A stretch of DNA of 64,000 nucleotides from Synechococcus sp. CC9902 (GTDB taxonomy: Bacteria; Cyanobacteriota; Cyanobacteriia; PCC-6307; Cyanobiaceae), in assembly GCF_000012505.1 (NCBI RefSeq), contig NC_007513.1, forward strand, positions 2,170,001 to 2,234,000, given 5' to 3'. Position 1 is the stretch's first letter; each line of letters starts with the position of its first letter. The translations under genes were made by a program, and so were the position numbers. Shown here piece by piece: positions 218 to 6,773 of the stretch. The notes under the pieces were generated by a model. It worked only from the letters and a program-made list of their open reading frames with translations, did no database searches and was not told the origin of the DNA.

Positions 218-1360
218 TCAGACCACATCCATCACACGATCGGCTCGATCCACCATGCAGGTGAGCAGAGCCATTCGAAGAAACACAGCGCCTCGGGCCT
301 GGCTGAAATACCAATTGTGAGGAGTGTCATCGAGGCAGGTGCTCAATTCAGGCCCCCGCGCCAGCGGATGCAACACAATCGCCTCGGGCTTAAACGGCAG
401 ATCCCGCGTAAGACGAAACCCTCCACCATGCACCTCATAACTATCACCAACCCAAGCAATAGCGTTGATGTAAACCACATCAAGCTCAGGCAACTCCGCG
501 CGTAAATCAGTCGCACAACGCAGAGACAAACCAGCCTTCAGCAACTCTTCTCGCTGACCGGGATCGAAGAGTGAAACATCATTTTCGATACCCGGCGCGT
601 GAATCACTACCACCTCCTCTACCATCCCAGGGAATTTGGCGAGAATCCTTAGAAGAGACCGAACTGTTCGCATTCTCGATGGAATGCCAATAATTCCAAT
701 ACGAATTCGATCCGACTCTGCAACGTTCGGAGCAGCAAGACTGGGTCTCCACTTCAAAATTGTGTAGAGATCAGCCATCGCCTGGGTGGGATGTTCATCA
801 ATCCCATTTCCTGCATTAATGATCGGAATACGAAGCGTGGAACTCATCGCCACGACGGCTTCAGGATTGCTATCTCGGAGTACGACGCAATCTCCATAGT
901 TATTAAACATATGGGCAACATCCTCGAGCGATTCACCCTTCGCGATTCCAGTTGTGCTTCGATCCGTGATGTTGATTGAATCGCCCCCTAAGCGGTGCCA
1001 AGCACTATCGAACGACAGACGTGTTCTTGTACTGGGCTCATAAAAGGCATTAATGAGGATTTTTCCAGTTAGAGGCGTGTTGTGTCGGATGTAGCGATCA
1101 GGATTGCTCTCGTACTTAGCCGCGAGACGGAACAGCTGTAAGAGGGTCTGTGCGGAGAAACTTTGAATCGAAACCACATGCTGGTTGGTCAAATCAATCA
1201 AGGGCTCAACAGCCTCATCGATCGAAGCCAACAAACACTGGGGCTGCGTCCTACCAAACACATCTGGGCCCAACGGTTGAAACCGAATCGGCTCTATACA
1301 CACATCAGCAGAAACAGACTGGACGATGGCCATGGCATAGGTGCATCGACATTCGATCAT
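218..1360 (-). CDS. Aspartate carbamoyltransferase-like protein with altered aspartate pocket
   Basis: Member of the ATCase/OTCase superfamily. FYEPSTRTRLSF (STRTR at residues 110-114), Arg162, HPTQ (190-193) and Arg231 match the carbamoyl-phosphate site of E. coli PyrB, and Lys141 matches the 80s-loop lysine. By eye alignment the E. coli aspartate ligands Arg229 and Gln231 fall on Ala300 and Ala302 (YINAIAW), and the HPLPR loop is HPLARG. The N terminus is about 55 residues longer than in E. coli. ATG codons at 1360 or 1333 could both start it. It is followed at once by an asparagine-synthase-type gene. Retained residues suggest a working carbamoyltransferase; the acceptor is probably not simply aspartate. 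A diverged or dead pyrB paralogue is the alternative. Confidence 0.8.
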   Translation of the reverse strand: MIECRCTYAMAIVQSVSADVCIEPIRFQPLGPDVFGRTQPQCLLASIDEAVEPLIDLTNQHVVSIQSFSAQTLLQLFRLAAKYESNPDRYIRHNTPLTGKILINAFYEPSTRTRLSFDSAWHRLGGDSINITDRSTTGIAKGESLEDVAHMFNNYGDCVVLRDSNPEAVVAMSSTLRIPIINAGNGIDEHPTQAMADLYTILKWRPSLAAPNVAESDRIRIGIIGIPSRMRTVRSLLRILAKFPGMVEEVVVIHAPGIENDVSLFDPGQREELLKAGLSLRCATDLRAELPELDVVYINAIAWVGDSYEVHGGGFRLTRDLPFKPEAIVLHPLARGPELSTCLDDTPHNWYFSQARGAVFLRMALLTCMVDRADRVMDVV

Positions 1361-1502: not shown

Positions 1503-1655
1503 TTACCAGATTCGTTTCTTGCGCCATTCGAAACACCAGATAGCCAGCAACATGAGCACGGCCAAAACAAGGGCTACCTGGCTCACAGCAATCACAGCCC
1601 CGAACCAAGACGCGTCGACATACCAGGCGAGAAAAACAAAGGGAATGCAACTCAT
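1503..1655 (-). CDS. Small single-helix membrane protein coupled to the upstream symporter (50 aa)
   Basis: A 50-residue frame whose ATG overlaps the TGA of the symporter gene (ATGA), with a GGAGG-type Shine-Dalgarno just upstream inside the symporter's last codons. It begins MSCIPFVFLAWYVDASWFG, continues with a strongly hydrophobic run of about 20 residues (roughly 19-41) and ends in a basic tail (EWRKKRIW), predicting one transmembrane helix with the C terminus in the cytoplasm. Small accessory proteins accompany several SSS-family symporters, but I do not recognise this one by name. Coupling and topology support a symporter subunit or assembly factor. It is too short for ordinary gene callers. 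Confidence 0.7.
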   Translation of the reverse strand: MSCIPFVFLAWYVDASWFGAVIAVSQVALVLAVLMLLAIWCFEWRKKRIW

Positions 1656-3076
1656 AGAGCCTCCTTCAGCAGAGACCACTGAAAGCGTTCAGGCCATCGA
1701 ACACTCCCCACCACCATCACCAAAGCCGACACCGCTGTTGAGAAAACTGCAGCGCAGTACGGCGCAATCCAGACATAGGCCGACAAGCCAACAACACTCC
1801 CCGACACCATCGCCACGATCGCAGCATTGCGATTGGCGTGAGGCCAGTACAGCCCGCAGGCCACAGGCCAGACGGTTGAAGCCACTAGGGCACCCGTAAA
1901 GAACAACACCGAAGCCAAGGAATCCAACCGTGGCCATGACAACAACAACGTCAAAACAGCTAACCCAACCACCGTGACCCGAGCGGCCTGCTTGAGCTGA
2001 GCATCGCTCGCCTGGGGACGCAGCAACCTGAAATAAATATCCTCTGCCACAAGATCCGCGGTGGAGGCCAATAAAGAATCGAGTGTTGAGGTGAGCGAGG
2101 CAAAAACAACAACAAAAACCAATGCGGCTCCACCGACCCCCAGGAGATCAGCAGCCATGACGGGAAACACCATGTTCACTTGAGGAAATTCAAGGCCTCG
2201 AGCCAACGCCACCAATCCGATCGAGCCCGTCACAATCGGAACACTCATCCATGCCAGGCCACCGAGCACAAACGAGGTCATCACAACTGAACGGCGGCTC
2301 GCAAACACGCGTGACCACCAGATGTTGTTGTGAAACACCTCTCCCATTGAAAATAAAGCTGAATTCCATGCAATCAGCAGCCCTGCGGGGAGTAAAAGAT
2401 TCAGATGATCAGCATGAGAGTTGATCAAACGAGCATGAACAGCGGGTGCAGGGAATTGACGAAAAGCCAGCACAGCCACAACAGCTAATAACACCATGAT
2501 CAACACTGACTGAATAAAGTCAGTGCCAATCACCGCACGCATTCCTCCATACAGCGTGTACAACATTGCGACACCAATCACCACAATCATCCCAACGTGA
2601 TAATCAAATCCTGAAAGAGATTGAAGGAGAATGCCTGCTCCCATTGCTTGGGTCATCAGAAATCCAAGCGTATAAATGGCAGTAATCACCATGAACACCC
2701 ACCAAGCCAAACGCCCATAACGCAACCGGATGAAATCACCACTCGTGCGTCCATTGGGCATTAACTGCTTAATTCGTAGTGCTAATGGCGCGAACAGAAT
2801 TAAACCAAGACCTGCCAATGCATAACTAAACATTCCCCAAAGACCCGTTTTGTAGCCAAATTCAGGTGCAAGAAGGGTTGTATTTCCGGTCACCCAAGAC
2901 GCCATCAATGTGGCAGTACTCAACGCCAGACCAATATTCCGACCAGCGAGCATATATTCATCTGCATCGCTCTTACCTTTCCTCCCCCAAGCAACACCGA
3001 GTGCAATCCAAAGCACTGAGAAGAGAACAACCAGAGCCCACGCCAGGCCCGGAGCTAGAAACGGTTCAACCTTCAT
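1652..3076 (-). CDS. Sodium:solute symporter (SSS) family transporter, DUR3-like
   Basis: About 474 residues with some 13 hydrophobic segments. The N-terminal signature DADEYMLAGRNIG followed by SWVTGNT, and the LYGGMRAVIGTDFIQS segment, are typical of SSS (LeuT-fold) Na+-coupled symporters. The MPNGRTSGDFIRLRYG loop recalls the DUR3 urea/polyamine branch, but substrate cannot be assigned. I take the ATG at 3076 rather than the upstream one at 3124, because a small coupled gene occupies the upstream region and ends 11 bases inside this start. Its TGA overlaps the ATG of a second miniprotein. Downstream lie the carbamoyltransferase-like and amidotransferase genes, suggesting uptake of a nitrogenous compound. 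Confidence 0.85.
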   Translation of the reverse strand: MKVEPFLAPGLAWALVVLFSVLWIALGVAWGRKGKSDADEYMLAGRNIGLALSTATLMASWVTGNTTLLAPEFGYKTGLWGMFSYALAGLGLILFAPLALRIKQLMPNGRTSGDFIRLRYGRLAWWVFMVITAIYTLGFLMTQAMGAGILLQSLSGFDYHVGMIVVIGVAMLYTLYGGMRAVIGTDFIQSVLIMVLLAVVAVLAFRQFPAPAVHARLINSHADHLNLLLPAGLLIAWNSALFSMGEVFHNNIWWSRVFASRRSVVMTSFVLGGLAWMSVPIVTGSIGLVALARGLEFPQVNMVFPVMAADLLGVGGAALVFVVVFASLTSTLDSLLASTADLVAEDIYFRLLRPQASDAQLKQAARVTVVGLAVLTLLLSWPRLDSLASVLFFTGALVASTVWPVACGLYWPHANRNAAIVAMVSGSVVGLSAYVWIAPYCAAVFSTAVSALVMVVGSVRWPERFQWSLLKEAL

Positions 3077-3191
3077 CGAACGGTTCCCGTCCAAGCCAAC
3101 TGAAATGGCCTTGAAGCACCACAAAAATTGTGGCAGCAGTCACCAAGGCCCCGAGGGAAAAGATCAAGCGAGACCACAGAACATCATCCAA
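3066..3191 (-). CDS. Small single-helix membrane protein upstream of symporter (41 aa, TTG start)
   Basis: A 41-residue frame starting at TTG (3191), six bases after a GGAG Shine-Dalgarno (3198-3201), and ending with TGA at 3066-3068, inside the first codons of the symporter. The product has a charged start, a hydrophobic run RLIFSLGALVTAATIFVVL (residues 8-26) and an acidic tail ending in EPFDEG, so one transmembrane helix is predicted. The overlap with the symporter ATG at 3076 implies translational coupling. No family recognised. Start codon, ribosome site, helix and coupling agree, but the frame is short and its reality needs comparative support. Confidence 0.55.
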   Translation of the reverse strand: MDDVLWSRLIFSLGALVTAATIFVVLQGHFSWLGREPFDEG

Positions 3192-3400
3192 ACCAAGCTC
3201 CAGAAGCTTTTGGCAACATACAACTCGACAAATACGTTCTTACTCATACTGCGAACGATCACTAATCCAGTAAGGGTATTAACCGAGACCAAAAACCCTA
3301 TCCCTGCAACCAGCTAATTGCCCGATCAAGCGATCGGTAACAAACAACACCTAGTTCAACAGACAGACGGATCTTTGATGAGTTGCCCATTGGTGAGCCA

Positions 3401-4909
3401 ATGTTCACTGAGTATCGGCCAACCCATGGTTACGACGAATATTTTTGTCGGGAACAATCTGCTCCCAGAGCAGACCTGGAGCCACTGCTGTCGTCGCTTG
3501 GACAGATAGGACTCACAGAACTCAACCGCAATCACGCTTCCGCCGGGAACCTTTTAAGACGACTCGGGGCCACCTTCCGACTCAACGACGCTGGACTGCA
3601 TGGAGGCGAAAGGATCCTGCCCTTCGATCCCCTTCCACGACTCATTCACCAACATGAATGGTCCAACCTCGAACGTGGTCTCCTGCAGCGCCTAGAAGCA
3701 ATTGATCGGTTCTTAGCAGACATCTATGGACCACAGAAAATCCTCAAGGATGGCGTGATTCCACGGGAAGACGTGGAAAGTTCGCAAGGCTGGAGGCCAC
3801 AGATGCAAGACATCAAGCTGCCCCTAAATCGCTGGTGTCATATTTCAGGACTGGATCTAATCCGCGATGAGGCAGGCACTTGGCGCGTACTCGAAGACAA
3901 CCTGCGCTGTCCATCCGGTGTGGCCTACTTCCTCGAGAACCGACAGGTCATGAAGCGATTGTTTCCCAGCCTGTTTGCTGGACGAACCGTTCAACCCATC
4001 GACGACTATCCCTCCAGGTTGTTACAGACACTGCAAGACTTAGCTCCTTGGGCAGATAAGCCACGCGTTGTATTGCTCACACCAGGAGTATTCAATAGTG
4101 CCTACTTCGAACACAGTTATCTCGCACAACAGATGGGCATCGCTCTGGTGGAAGGGCGTGACTTGATCTGCGAAGAAGGCCGCGTTTGGATGCGCAGCAC
4201 AACTGGTCGTGAAGTGGTGGATGTGATCTACCGACGAATCGATGACGATTTTCTCGATCCAAAGGTGTTCCGTCGCGATTCAGCGCTGGGCGTACCTGGA
4301 TTGATCGATGTTTTGCAGAGTGGCAGGGTCGCCATTGCCAATGCACCCGGCACCGGGATCGCCGACGACAAGTTGATCTACGCCTACATCCCGAAAATAA
4401 TTCGGTATTACCTCAATGAAGAACCGATTATCGAAAATGTTCCCACCTATCTCTGCTCCCGCCCAGATGATCAACAGTACGTTCTAGAAAACCTTGAAAA
4501 GCTTGTGGTTAAGTCTGTAGCTGAAGCAGGAGGCTATGGAATGCTGATCGGCCCACAATCAAGCCGAAGTGAGATCTTAGAATTTGACACAAAGATTAGA
4601 TCTAATCCACGCAATTACATAGCCCAGCCCACGCTTCAACTCTCCACCATTCCTGCACTGAGCCAGGGAGAACTATTTCCCTGTCATGTGGATTTACGGC
4701 CCTATATTTTACGCGGAAAGTCCAACTGGGTCAGCCCAGGTGGGCTGACCCGCGTCGCCTTAAAGCGTGGCTCTTTGGTGGTGAACTCATCCCAAGGTGG
4801 TGGCTGTAAAGACACATGGGTTGTGGGTGACAGCCAGGTTGTGGGTGACAGCCAGGTTGTAAACGACGGTGACGTTGAACCAACACTTCAGGAGGCAATG
4901 CCGTGCTGA
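3401..4909 (+). CDS. Circularly permuted ATP-grasp type 2 protein
   Basis: A 502-residue protein of the circularly permuted ATP-grasp family (CP_ATPgrasp). Hallmarks visible: VLEDNLRCPSGVAYFLENR in the N-terminal half, KSVAEAGGYGMLIGP in the middle, RPYILRG, and PGGLTRVAL followed by VVNSSQGGGCKDTWVV near the end. The family is predicted to form peptide-like or amide bonds and nearly always sits with alpha-E and transglutaminase genes, as here. ATG 3401 is chosen over the in-frame TTG 3383. The C terminus carries an in-frame 18-base duplication giving VVGDSQ twice. The next gene overlaps by 7 bases. Substrate unknown. Confidence 0.93.
   Translation: MFTEYRPTHGYDEYFCREQSAPRADLEPLLSSLGQIGLTELNRNHASAGNLLRRLGATFRLNDAGLHGGERILPFDPLPRLIHQHEWSNLERGLLQRLEAIDRFLADIYGPQKILKDGVIPREDVESSQGWRPQMQDIKLPLNRWCHISGLDLIRDEAGTWRVLEDNLRCPSGVAYFLENRQVMKRLFPSLFAGRTVQPIDDYPSRLLQTLQDLAPWADKPRVVLLTPGVFNSAYFEHSYLAQQMGIALVEGRDLICEEGRVWMRSTTGREVVDVIYRRIDDDFLDPKVFRRDSALGVPGLIDVLQSGRVAIANAPGTGIADDKLIYAYIPKIIRYYLNEEPIIENVPTYLCSRPDDQQYVLENLEKLVVKSVAEAGGYGMLIGPQSSRSEILEFDTKIRSNPRNYIAQPTLQLSTIPALSQGELFPCHVDLRPYILRGKSNWVSPGGLTRVALKRGSLVVNSSQGGGCKDTWVVGDSQVVGDSQVVNDGDVEPTLQEAMPC
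4820..4860 (+). repeat. 18-base tandem repeat at the 3' end of the ATP-grasp gene
   Basis: Two perfect copies of an 18-base unit (4820-4837 and 4838-4855) followed by a partial third (GTTGT). It is in frame and encodes VVGDSQ-VVGDSQ-VV after the conserved KDTWVV ending, so it lengthens a variable tail without touching the conserved fold. Looks like a recent slippage duplication. Confidence 0.9.
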
Positions 4910-5886
4910 GCCGGGTTGCCGACTCCCTCTACTGGATTAATCGATATGTAGAACGCGCTGAAAATATTTCTCGCTTTCTGGAAGTAAGTGAAGCCATGGC
5001 TTTGGATTGCCCACCCGGCAGTGCAGAACCATGGATCCCACTCATTGATGCCAGTGGAGACAGGCAGAGTTTCGATCAGGGCTACCCACTGCGATCTCCG
5101 CGAGATGTCGTGGGGTTTTTATTGCTAGACCGCGATAACCCCAACAGCATCCTCAGCTGCATTGCCACTGCCAGGGAAAATGCACGCCAAATCCGCGATG
5201 TTATTACCACAGAAATGTGGGAGCAATTGAACGACCTCTACTGGAATGTTCAAGATGGAGAAGCCATCTGGCAGGAACCAGATCAAGAGCAACTCCGCAG
5301 CATCCGAAGAGGTTGCCAACTGTTTTATGGCATTACGGATGTCACCCTGAGCCGCGATCAAGCCTGGCTCTTCAGTCAACTAGGCCGTTGGATTGAACGC
5401 GCCGACAAAACATCCAGAATCCTTGATGTGAAGTATTTTCTTCTTCTGCCAACCCCAAAAGAAATTGGTGGCGTTCTTGATGAACTTCAATGGATATCTC
5501 TACTTCGTACAGCTGGGGCTTACCAGATGTACCGCCAAAGTGTTCAACAGGCGATCACTCCATCCTCTGTGGCCAGGTTCCTTTTACTGGATCCAATTTT
5601 TCCAAGGTCAGTGCGCTTCTGTTTGCAACAAATCAACGACACATTGCAACTCATCCAACGGCAACCACAACTGGGCCCTCCTGACGATCTCGAATGCCTA
5701 CGCGGGCAATTGCTGGCCAAGTGGAGCTATGTGCGGATTGACGCCCTAATTGAACGGGGGCTACACGAAGCCATTGACGAATTACAGGGAGATCTCAATC
5801 AACTGCATCAACTCATCCACGCCCGATATTTCGTCACCACCGACCTTGGCTCCATTCCCACTGACCCGTCATGCGCGCTGAGCTAA
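4903..5886 (+). CDS. Alpha-E domain protein
   Basis: 327 residues, all predicted helical, beginning MLSRVADSLYWINRYVERAEN, the start signature of the alpha-E family (once DUF403). Starts at GTG 4903 with GGAGG at about 4891, overlapping the end of the ATP-grasp gene by 7 bases; its own end overlaps the transglutaminase gene by 16. The family has no established biochemistry, but it is a constant partner of circularly permuted ATP-grasp and transglutaminase-like proteins, sometimes fused to the former, so it is inferred to be a subunit or substrate-handling partner of that peptide-modifying system. Confidence 0.93.
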   Translation: MLSRVADSLYWINRYVERAENISRFLEVSEAMALDCPPGSAEPWIPLIDASGDRQSFDQGYPLRSPRDVVGFLLLDRDNPNSILSCIATARENARQIRDVITTEMWEQLNDLYWNVQDGEAIWQEPDQEQLRSIRRGCQLFYGITDVTLSRDQAWLFSQLGRWIERADKTSRILDVKYFLLLPTPKEIGGVLDELQWISLLRTAGAYQMYRQSVQQAITPSSVARFLLLDPIFPRSVRFCLQQINDTLQLIQRQPQLGPPDDLECLRGQLLAKWSYVRIDALIERGLHEAIDELQGDLNQLHQLIHARYFVTTDLGSIPTDPSCALS

Positions 5887-6773
5887 CCCACTGCATCACC
5901 TACCACTACGACGCTCCGGTCAGCTTGAGCGAGCACAGGCTCTGCATGCGACCTCGGGGTCATGGTCATCAGCGCCTGCTGAATTACCAACTCAATATTT
6001 CGCCAAAGCCTTGCCACAGCCATGAACTCGTAGCAGCCAGTGGCGATGCCATTCAACGCGTGCGGTTTCAAAACGCCACCGATGAACTCCGCTTTGAAGC
6101 TTGCAGTCGCCTCGAAACCACAACTGCAGCACCCCTACTGAATTGTCTAGATGGCCGCGAACCACTTCTCCCTTATCCACGGGGTCGTCTGAATCCAGAT
6201 CTTCAAGGTGCACTGGAGGGCTGGCTGCCAAACGGCCAACACGATCCCTCAGCTGTTGCTTTGGCTCAAGACGCCTTAATGGGAACCAACCAACAAGCAC
6301 TGTCGTTTCTCAATCAGCTCATCGAGATGATCCAAGACAGGGTGAAATACACCCAGCGTCATCAAGGAGCCGCCTGGCCGGCGGGACGAACACTGCGGGA
6401 ACGAGTTGGTTCCTGTCGCGACCTCGCAATGTTGATGGTCGAGTGCTGCAGAAGCATTGGGCTACCGGCACGATTTGTAAGCGGATATCACTTAGCGAAC
6501 CCAGCGCCCGAGTCGTACGACCTACACGCCTGGGCAGAGGTTTACTTACCAGGTGCCGGATGGCGTGGATTTGACCCGAGCGCCGGAGGAGAAACAACCG
6601 ATCGCTACATCGTGCTGGCAAGCTCCTCAAGTCCAGAGCTCACGGCAGCGATTACTGGCAGCTTCAGCGGACTGGCATCAACGCAAAGCCAACTGAGTTG
6701 GACGATCCAAGCGACCGTTGACGACAACACCAATCAACCTGGGGAAAAGAAGACCCTGATTCAGGCAGCTTGA
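5871..6773 (+). CDS. Transglutaminase-like cysteine protease with bacterial N-terminal domain
   Basis: 300 residues. The N terminus (ELTHCITYHYDAPVSLSEHR) is the bacterial transglutaminase-like N-terminal region; the core has GSCRDLA with Cys182, LHAWAEVYLPG with His219 and FDPSAG with Asp235, a complete Cys-His-Asp triad. The protein is predicted cytoplasmic (no signal peptide). ATG 5871 lies inside the alpha-E gene, so the three genes form one coupled operon. In such operons the enzyme probably cleaves or transfers amide bonds made by the ATP-grasp ligase. The last 13 bases overlap the convergent cupin-like gene. Confidence 0.93.
   Translation: MRAELTHCITYHYDAPVSLSEHRLCMRPRGHGHQRLLNYQLNISPKPCHSHELVAASGDAIQRVRFQNATDELRFEACSRLETTTAAPLLNCLDGREPLLPYPRGRLNPDLQGALEGWLPNGQHDPSAVALAQDALMGTNQQALSFLNQLIEMIQDRVKYTQRHQGAAWPAGRTLRERVGSCRDLAMLMVECCRSIGLPARFVSGYHLANPAPESYDLHAWAEVYLPGAGWRGFDPSAGGETTDRYIVLASSSSPELTAAITGSFSGLASTQSQLSWTIQATVDDNTNQPGEKKTLIQAA

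Follow-up and report, generated by a model that had tools for sequence, protein, structure and literature searches.

In Synechococcus sp. CC9902 a carrier gene of the SSS family is bracketed by two genuine genes for single-helix miniproteins, MP1 at its start and MP2 at its stop. Both genes are under purifying selection and occur strictly together with the carrier. On balance we favor a reading in which MP1 and MP2 are dedicated subunits of a Na+-dependent SSS importer for a ureido-type compound, acting in a MAP17-like manner. The analyzed stretch of 64,000 nucleotides (referred to as the window) covers bases 2,170,001–2,234,000 of the 2.23-Mb, single-contig genome. Positions refer to the window unless they carry the contig label G000:C1.

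All three genes lie on the minus strand. MP1 (3191–3066) comprises 41 residues and starts with TTG, preceded by a GGAG motif six nucleotides upstream; its stop is located 11 nucleotides inside the carrier gene. The carrier (3076–1652, ATG start) consists of 474 residues. MP2 (1655–1503, ATG start, 50 residues) overlaps the carrier stop by the four nucleotides ATGA, with AAGGAGG just 5' of its start. The overlap of both small frames with the start and stop of the carrier, as originally predicted, is thus correct for the window genome. Each miniprotein contains one hydrophobic stretch, predicted to form a single helix. The trio is followed by a carbamoyltransferase paralogue (pseudo-ATCase) at 218–1360 (minus, start at 1360 or 1333), located 3' of MP2, and by the 5' end of an asparagine-synthetase-like gene (1–209, minus), which extends beyond the window to G000:C1:2168185. 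The cassette genes after the trio, encoding the asparagine-synthetase-like protein, an M20 carbamoylase and a DUF1028 protein, occupy G000:C1:2166133–2170209. Between MP2 and the carbamoyltransferase a GTTC-N5-GAAC palindrome was observed in only 10 of 58 loci, e.g. L006 and L007. A divergent block at 3383–6773 (plus strand) contains three large open reading frames, which presumably encode a circularly permuted ATP-grasp, an alpha-E and a transglutaminase-like protein; an in-frame GDSQVV repeat is located near the end of the first.

The carrier matches PF00474 with 106.2 bits (gathering cut-off 22.8) and is a member of the SSS family. It stays below the cut-offs of the TIGR00813 superfamily (150 vs 184) and of the TIGR03648 large subunit (61.2 bits vs 320.75). 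Its closest solved structure is DUR3 both by sequence profile (9j7c, E = 1.9e-36) and by fold, where a Foldseek search with an AlphaFold model of the carrier alone (mean pLDDT 69.9) yielded 9j7d with a TMq of 0.74. By profile and model the protein resembles DUR3 urea symporters, urea transport itself being only putative. The model further suggests about 13 transmembrane helices, basic loops lying where they would be expected, and an N-out/C-in orientation.

The locus set comprised 58 carriers from 57 genomes (24 relatives and 33 further genomes, one of them with two copies). The duplicates L101, L107 and L111 (identical to L149, L160 and L141) were left out of the counts. One genome, G013, is spread over two contigs, with L026 providing MP2 and L049 providing MP1, and L152, whose contig begins within the carrier, is outside the MP1 count. 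MP1 was present at all 57 carriers having upstream sequence, MP2 at 58 of 58. For the core codons of 23 loci of the genus (L003–L025, no duplicate rows among them) the in-frame dN/dS was 0.22 for MP1 and 0.19 for MP2, compared to values of 1.1–2.4 in the other two frames. Both small open reading frames are therefore real genes, beyond chance. Broken frames in close relatives had been named at the outset as the observation that would speak against them; on inspection the frames were conserved, with dN/dS about 0.2. At 55 of 57 loci, column 1 of MP1 is a start codon (ATG, GTG or TTG). None of the MP1 or MP2 members reaches the cut-off of any Pfam or NCBIfam family.

MP1 overlaps the carrier gene in 42 of 57 loci and MP2 begins at position −4 in 32 of 58, so that overlap is frequent but not obligatory. 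The overlaps suggest translational coupling of the trio, although they are not universal. At locus L153 (69% carrier identity) MP1 lies 237 nucleotides upstream of the carrier without overlap; an initial assignment of MP1 as absent from this locus was rejected when the gene was located farther upstream. In other genera, too, both miniproteins flank the carrier, even where its identity has dropped to 68%. Genome G229 contains two cassettes of trio plus carbamoyltransferase (L116 and L142), with carriers 87% and 82% identical to that of the window.

The conserved positions are found in the helix and in the tail. In MP1 the fixed helix positions are F, G, VT, T and G, mostly followed by GH after the helix. 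MP2 has an invariant L, IW, E and final W, together with a nearly always conserved R, and its tail takes the form IWxxEWRxxxxW. At 53 of 57 loci the first nine residues of MP1 carry a net negative charge, which fits an N-out arrangement. In several other genera MP2 carries a longer, signal-peptide-like N-terminus, with a hydrophobic stretch ending in AKA or ARA, and this points to N-out/C-in. Judged from these sequence features, both miniproteins are probably oriented N-out/C-in. An opposite tail charge, acidic in MP1 and basic in MP2, was part of the original prediction and did not survive the comparison. The tail of MP1 has a charge of −2 in the window, but only 6 of 57 loci have a negative MP1 tail, compared to 13 with a charge of zero and 38 with a positive one; the tail of MP2 is positive in 54 of 58. 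With 57 MP1 and 58 MP2 loci at hand, a charge contrast as a design feature was ruled out.

Both peptides track the carrier in every genome set tested, which answers a question raised together with the prediction. The near relatives that have names are marine Synechococcus and Cyanobium. Among 59 relatives the close carrier, MP1, MP2 and the carbamoyltransferase were found in the identical 24 genomes. The other 35 gave no strong match to the carrier, MP1 or MP2; this count ignores weaker SSS paralogues and small-protein matches above E = 0.07. Out of 386 genomes of the phylum, 16 were selected by the carrier profile at E = 1e-40 and the identical 16 by the MP2 profile at E = 0.01; the MP1 profile selected those 16 and four marginal matches (E = 0.002–0.009). 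In the family, 52 of 300 genomes contain the carrier, spread over 9 of 59 genera. The hosts of the trio are ocean and freshwater picocyanobacteria. Two carrier queries against viral contigs retrieved no relatives. A contig labelled as a gammaproteobacterial MAG (L093, NYVG01000026.1) encodes a carrier 97% identical to that of the window and is probably a misbinned Synechococcus contig. The perfect co-occurrence could instead reflect a single inherited operon; in that case, however, functionless frames would be expected to decay. Selection on both frames, together with their presence at 57/57 and 58/58 carriers, bears out the claim that the miniproteins on either side of the carrier, each with a single helix, are genuine.

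Each of the 58 distinct carriers has the carbamoyltransferase 3' of MP2 on the same strand (61 rows including the three duplicates; a 62nd row, L049, is without downstream sequence). It scores 189.8 bits against TIGR00670, the aspartate carbamoyltransferase equivalog, and thus falls short of the cut-off of 236.95, and the window genome has a separate PyrB with 294 bits. A separate PyrB (277–296 bits) was present in 10 of 10 genomes checked, as was a further carbamoyltransferase with 124–151 bits, which we take to be the ornithine enzyme. The cassette paralogue (189–196 bits) was found only in the six of these ten genomes that contain the carrier. Its sub-cut-off score, the separate PyrB and the carrier-only occurrence rule out an assignment as housekeeping pyrB. 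It is a third, cassette-only carbamoyltransferase that would be annotated as pyrB. The carbamoyl-phosphate motifs are intact, whereas NAIA replaces the aspartate motif RXQ of ATCase and HPLA replaces HPLP; all four pseudo-ATCase motifs (STRT, HPTQ, HPLA and AIA) are present in the window protein.

Together with the carbamoyltransferase, genes for the asparagine-synthetase-like protein, the M20 carbamoylase and DUF1028 were found in 10 of 10 larger loci, in a partly changed order. The carrier is inside the retrieved stretch in nine of these ten; L210, from the genome of the window, stops short of it. Of the 24 carrier genomes, 22 contain DUF1028 and the remaining two are incomplete (83% and 75%). 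It also occurs in two genomes that lack the carrier, one being 53% complete. The gene upstream of the trio varies between clades. On plasmids, the matches listed for the carbamoyltransferase query (25 of 77 records) contained only ordinary-looking pyrB, and those listed for the asparagine-synthetase-like query only asnB relatives. In the window genome, the cassette is adjoined on its DUF1028 side by genes in the opposite direction (L210:2010–4043, plus strand); these are presumably the urease genes UreC and UreB.

Without the miniproteins, the block is partly in print already. Barba et al. (2013, PMC4016543) described a pseudo-ATCase block of marine bacteria consisting of a Na+ symporter, the pseudo-ATCase, an 'asparaginase' and HyuC, and named Synechococcus WH 8102. 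In Table 1 of that paper the HPLA and AIA motifs stand in the row labelled 1, yet WH 8102 is placed in group 3. The available portion of that text makes no mention of the miniproteins, of DUF1028 or of an asparagine-synthetase identity. A search of the literature on small subunits of SSS carriers and on the cassette, covering mostly titles and abstracts and few subscription journals, gave no description of miniproteins at this carrier.

Based on these results we propose the following scheme. MP1, the carrier and MP2 would be made together from their overlapping genes. The two helices would pack against the exterior of the carrier and stabilize, fold or tune it, much like MAP17 in the case of SGLT2. 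The complex would take in a small nitrogen compound of the ureido or amide type coupled to Na+, a substrate class suggested by the gene neighbors. Inside the cell, the carbamoyltransferase paralogue, the M20 carbamoylase, the asparagine-synthetase-like enzyme and the DUF1028 protein may process the imported compound. From the original reading as accessory subunits, the part concerning genuine, conserved miniproteins that track the carrier now stands; their physical association with the carrier and their stabilizing role, like the membrane topology and the substrate class, are inferred.

Other explanations have to be weighed against this scheme. MP1 and MP2 could be regulators of the carrier, i.e. 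inhibitors, proteolysis tags or switches comparable to MgtS and AcrZ, which act on other transporters, rather than constitutive subunits. In favor of this reading, a review (PMC10710835, as far as its available part goes) covers small membrane proteins whose binding to a transporter changes its activity or turnover. Here, however, the small frames overlap the carrier gene in many loci instead of being encoded apart, and, marginal matches aside, none of the 386 genomes has them in the absence of the carrier, so we regard regulation as unlikely. A split transporter, with the miniproteins as detached terminal helices of the carrier, would explain their positions at both ends of the gene and why none of the tested genome sets has them separately from it. 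We nevertheless consider it very unlikely, because carrier ends in the N-out/C-in arrangement would need an orientation opposite to that suggested by the signal-peptide-like forms of MP2 and by the charge pattern, and because a fused form was not found. The start and stop overlaps at many loci might also mean that the frames serve mainly for translational coupling or leader control while the peptides matter little. This is hardly credible in view of the purifying selection on the amino acids, the invariant residues in helix and tail, and the conservation even without overlap, as at L153 with its 237-nucleotide gap.

Going beyond the subunit reading, the cytoplasmic tail of MP2, with its invariant IW, E and final W, might dock the carbamoyltransferase, so that an imported ureido compound would undergo phosphorolysis or some other conversion at the membrane. 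Such docking is compatible with the finding that the enzyme and all three members of the trio share one set of 24 among 59 genomes. Comparable basic tails at carriers that lack the enzyme speak against it, and we think it quite improbable. If true, it would amount to a transporter–enzyme metabolon held together by a miniprotein.

To see what is special about the subunit candidates, the surroundings of other SSS carriers have to be considered. In plasmid controls, a one-helix frame was located just downstream of 7 out of 10 other SSS carriers, and three of these frames belong to NF038354 (64–75 bits, cut-off 40). A convincing upstream one-helix frame was found at none of the ten; upstream matches of 34 and 28 residues at L182 were judged spurious. 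The carrier limits were assigned by hand for L190 (an unannotated record) and L184 (two annotated pieces). A second SSS carrier of the window genome (L001, G000:C1:620125–624384) likewise shows an ATGA overlap with a 49-residue one-helix frame, the tail of which reads SARIWLPGDMLAPAPVG. This downstream frame is conserved at 14 of 14 loci, including genomes without the cassette. An apparent fusion of this carrier to its own miniprotein was ruled out, the tblastn alignment having run through a stop. With such frames at seven of ten controls and at the second carrier, having a miniprotein downstream is common among SSS carriers, and the constant upstream partner is the unusual part of the trio.

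Work on prokaryotic SSS carriers usually treats them as single chains. In the present case, at least nine picocyanobacterial genera have kept a pair of one-helix genes with the same carrier. Its position between these genes and next to a dedicated carbamoyl-handling enzyme suggests that a nitrogen-rich compound is imported by a system of three parts, of which the small ones have escaped notice. The cassette is likely to serve the use of dissolved organic nitrogen, and its pyrB-like gene can be mistaken for one of pyrimidine synthesis.

Several known systems share features with the trio. The large subunit described by TIGR03648 is paired with a DUF4212 small subunit of two helices and about 80 residues, which resembles the trio in combining an SSS carrier with a small partner. 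Another is NF038354 (trnsprt_adja_43, putative transporter small subunit), a one-helix frame of about 43 residues with a basic C-terminal tail, located directly 3' of an SSS carrier. In contrast to that family, 13 MP2 members gave no match to the model at E up to 10, and the NF038354 loci show no convincing upstream partner. One-helix frames on both sides were observed on plasmid NZ_CP119993.1 of the haloarchaeon Halomarina sp. PSR21 (L164), around a carrier 34% identical to ours. There, the upstream frame ends 2 nucleotides before the carrier, and the downstream frame (44 residues, ending in RELRNDTMW) overlaps it by ATGA. DUF1028 follows downstream as in the cassette, and a C-N hydrolase takes the place of the carbamoyltransferase. 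Homology of these miniproteins to MP1 and MP2 was not supported by profile comparison (probabilities of 8% and 2%).

A close functional analogy is provided by human SGLT2 and MAP17, also a carrier of the SSS fold with a separate single-helix partner. According to the available part of the report (PMC10803289), MAP17 is bound with its single helix at TM13 of SGLT2, acts as scaffold and stabilizer and is needed for robust function. The comparison concerns the way of working only, since MP1 and MP2 reach no Pfam cut-off and no sequence relationship to the MAP17 family was detected. SGLT2 has one such subunit, compared to two candidates here, and the MAP17 system is not an operon. The trio would thus represent a natural, genetically simple counterpart of SGLT2–MAP17 with two candidate subunits.
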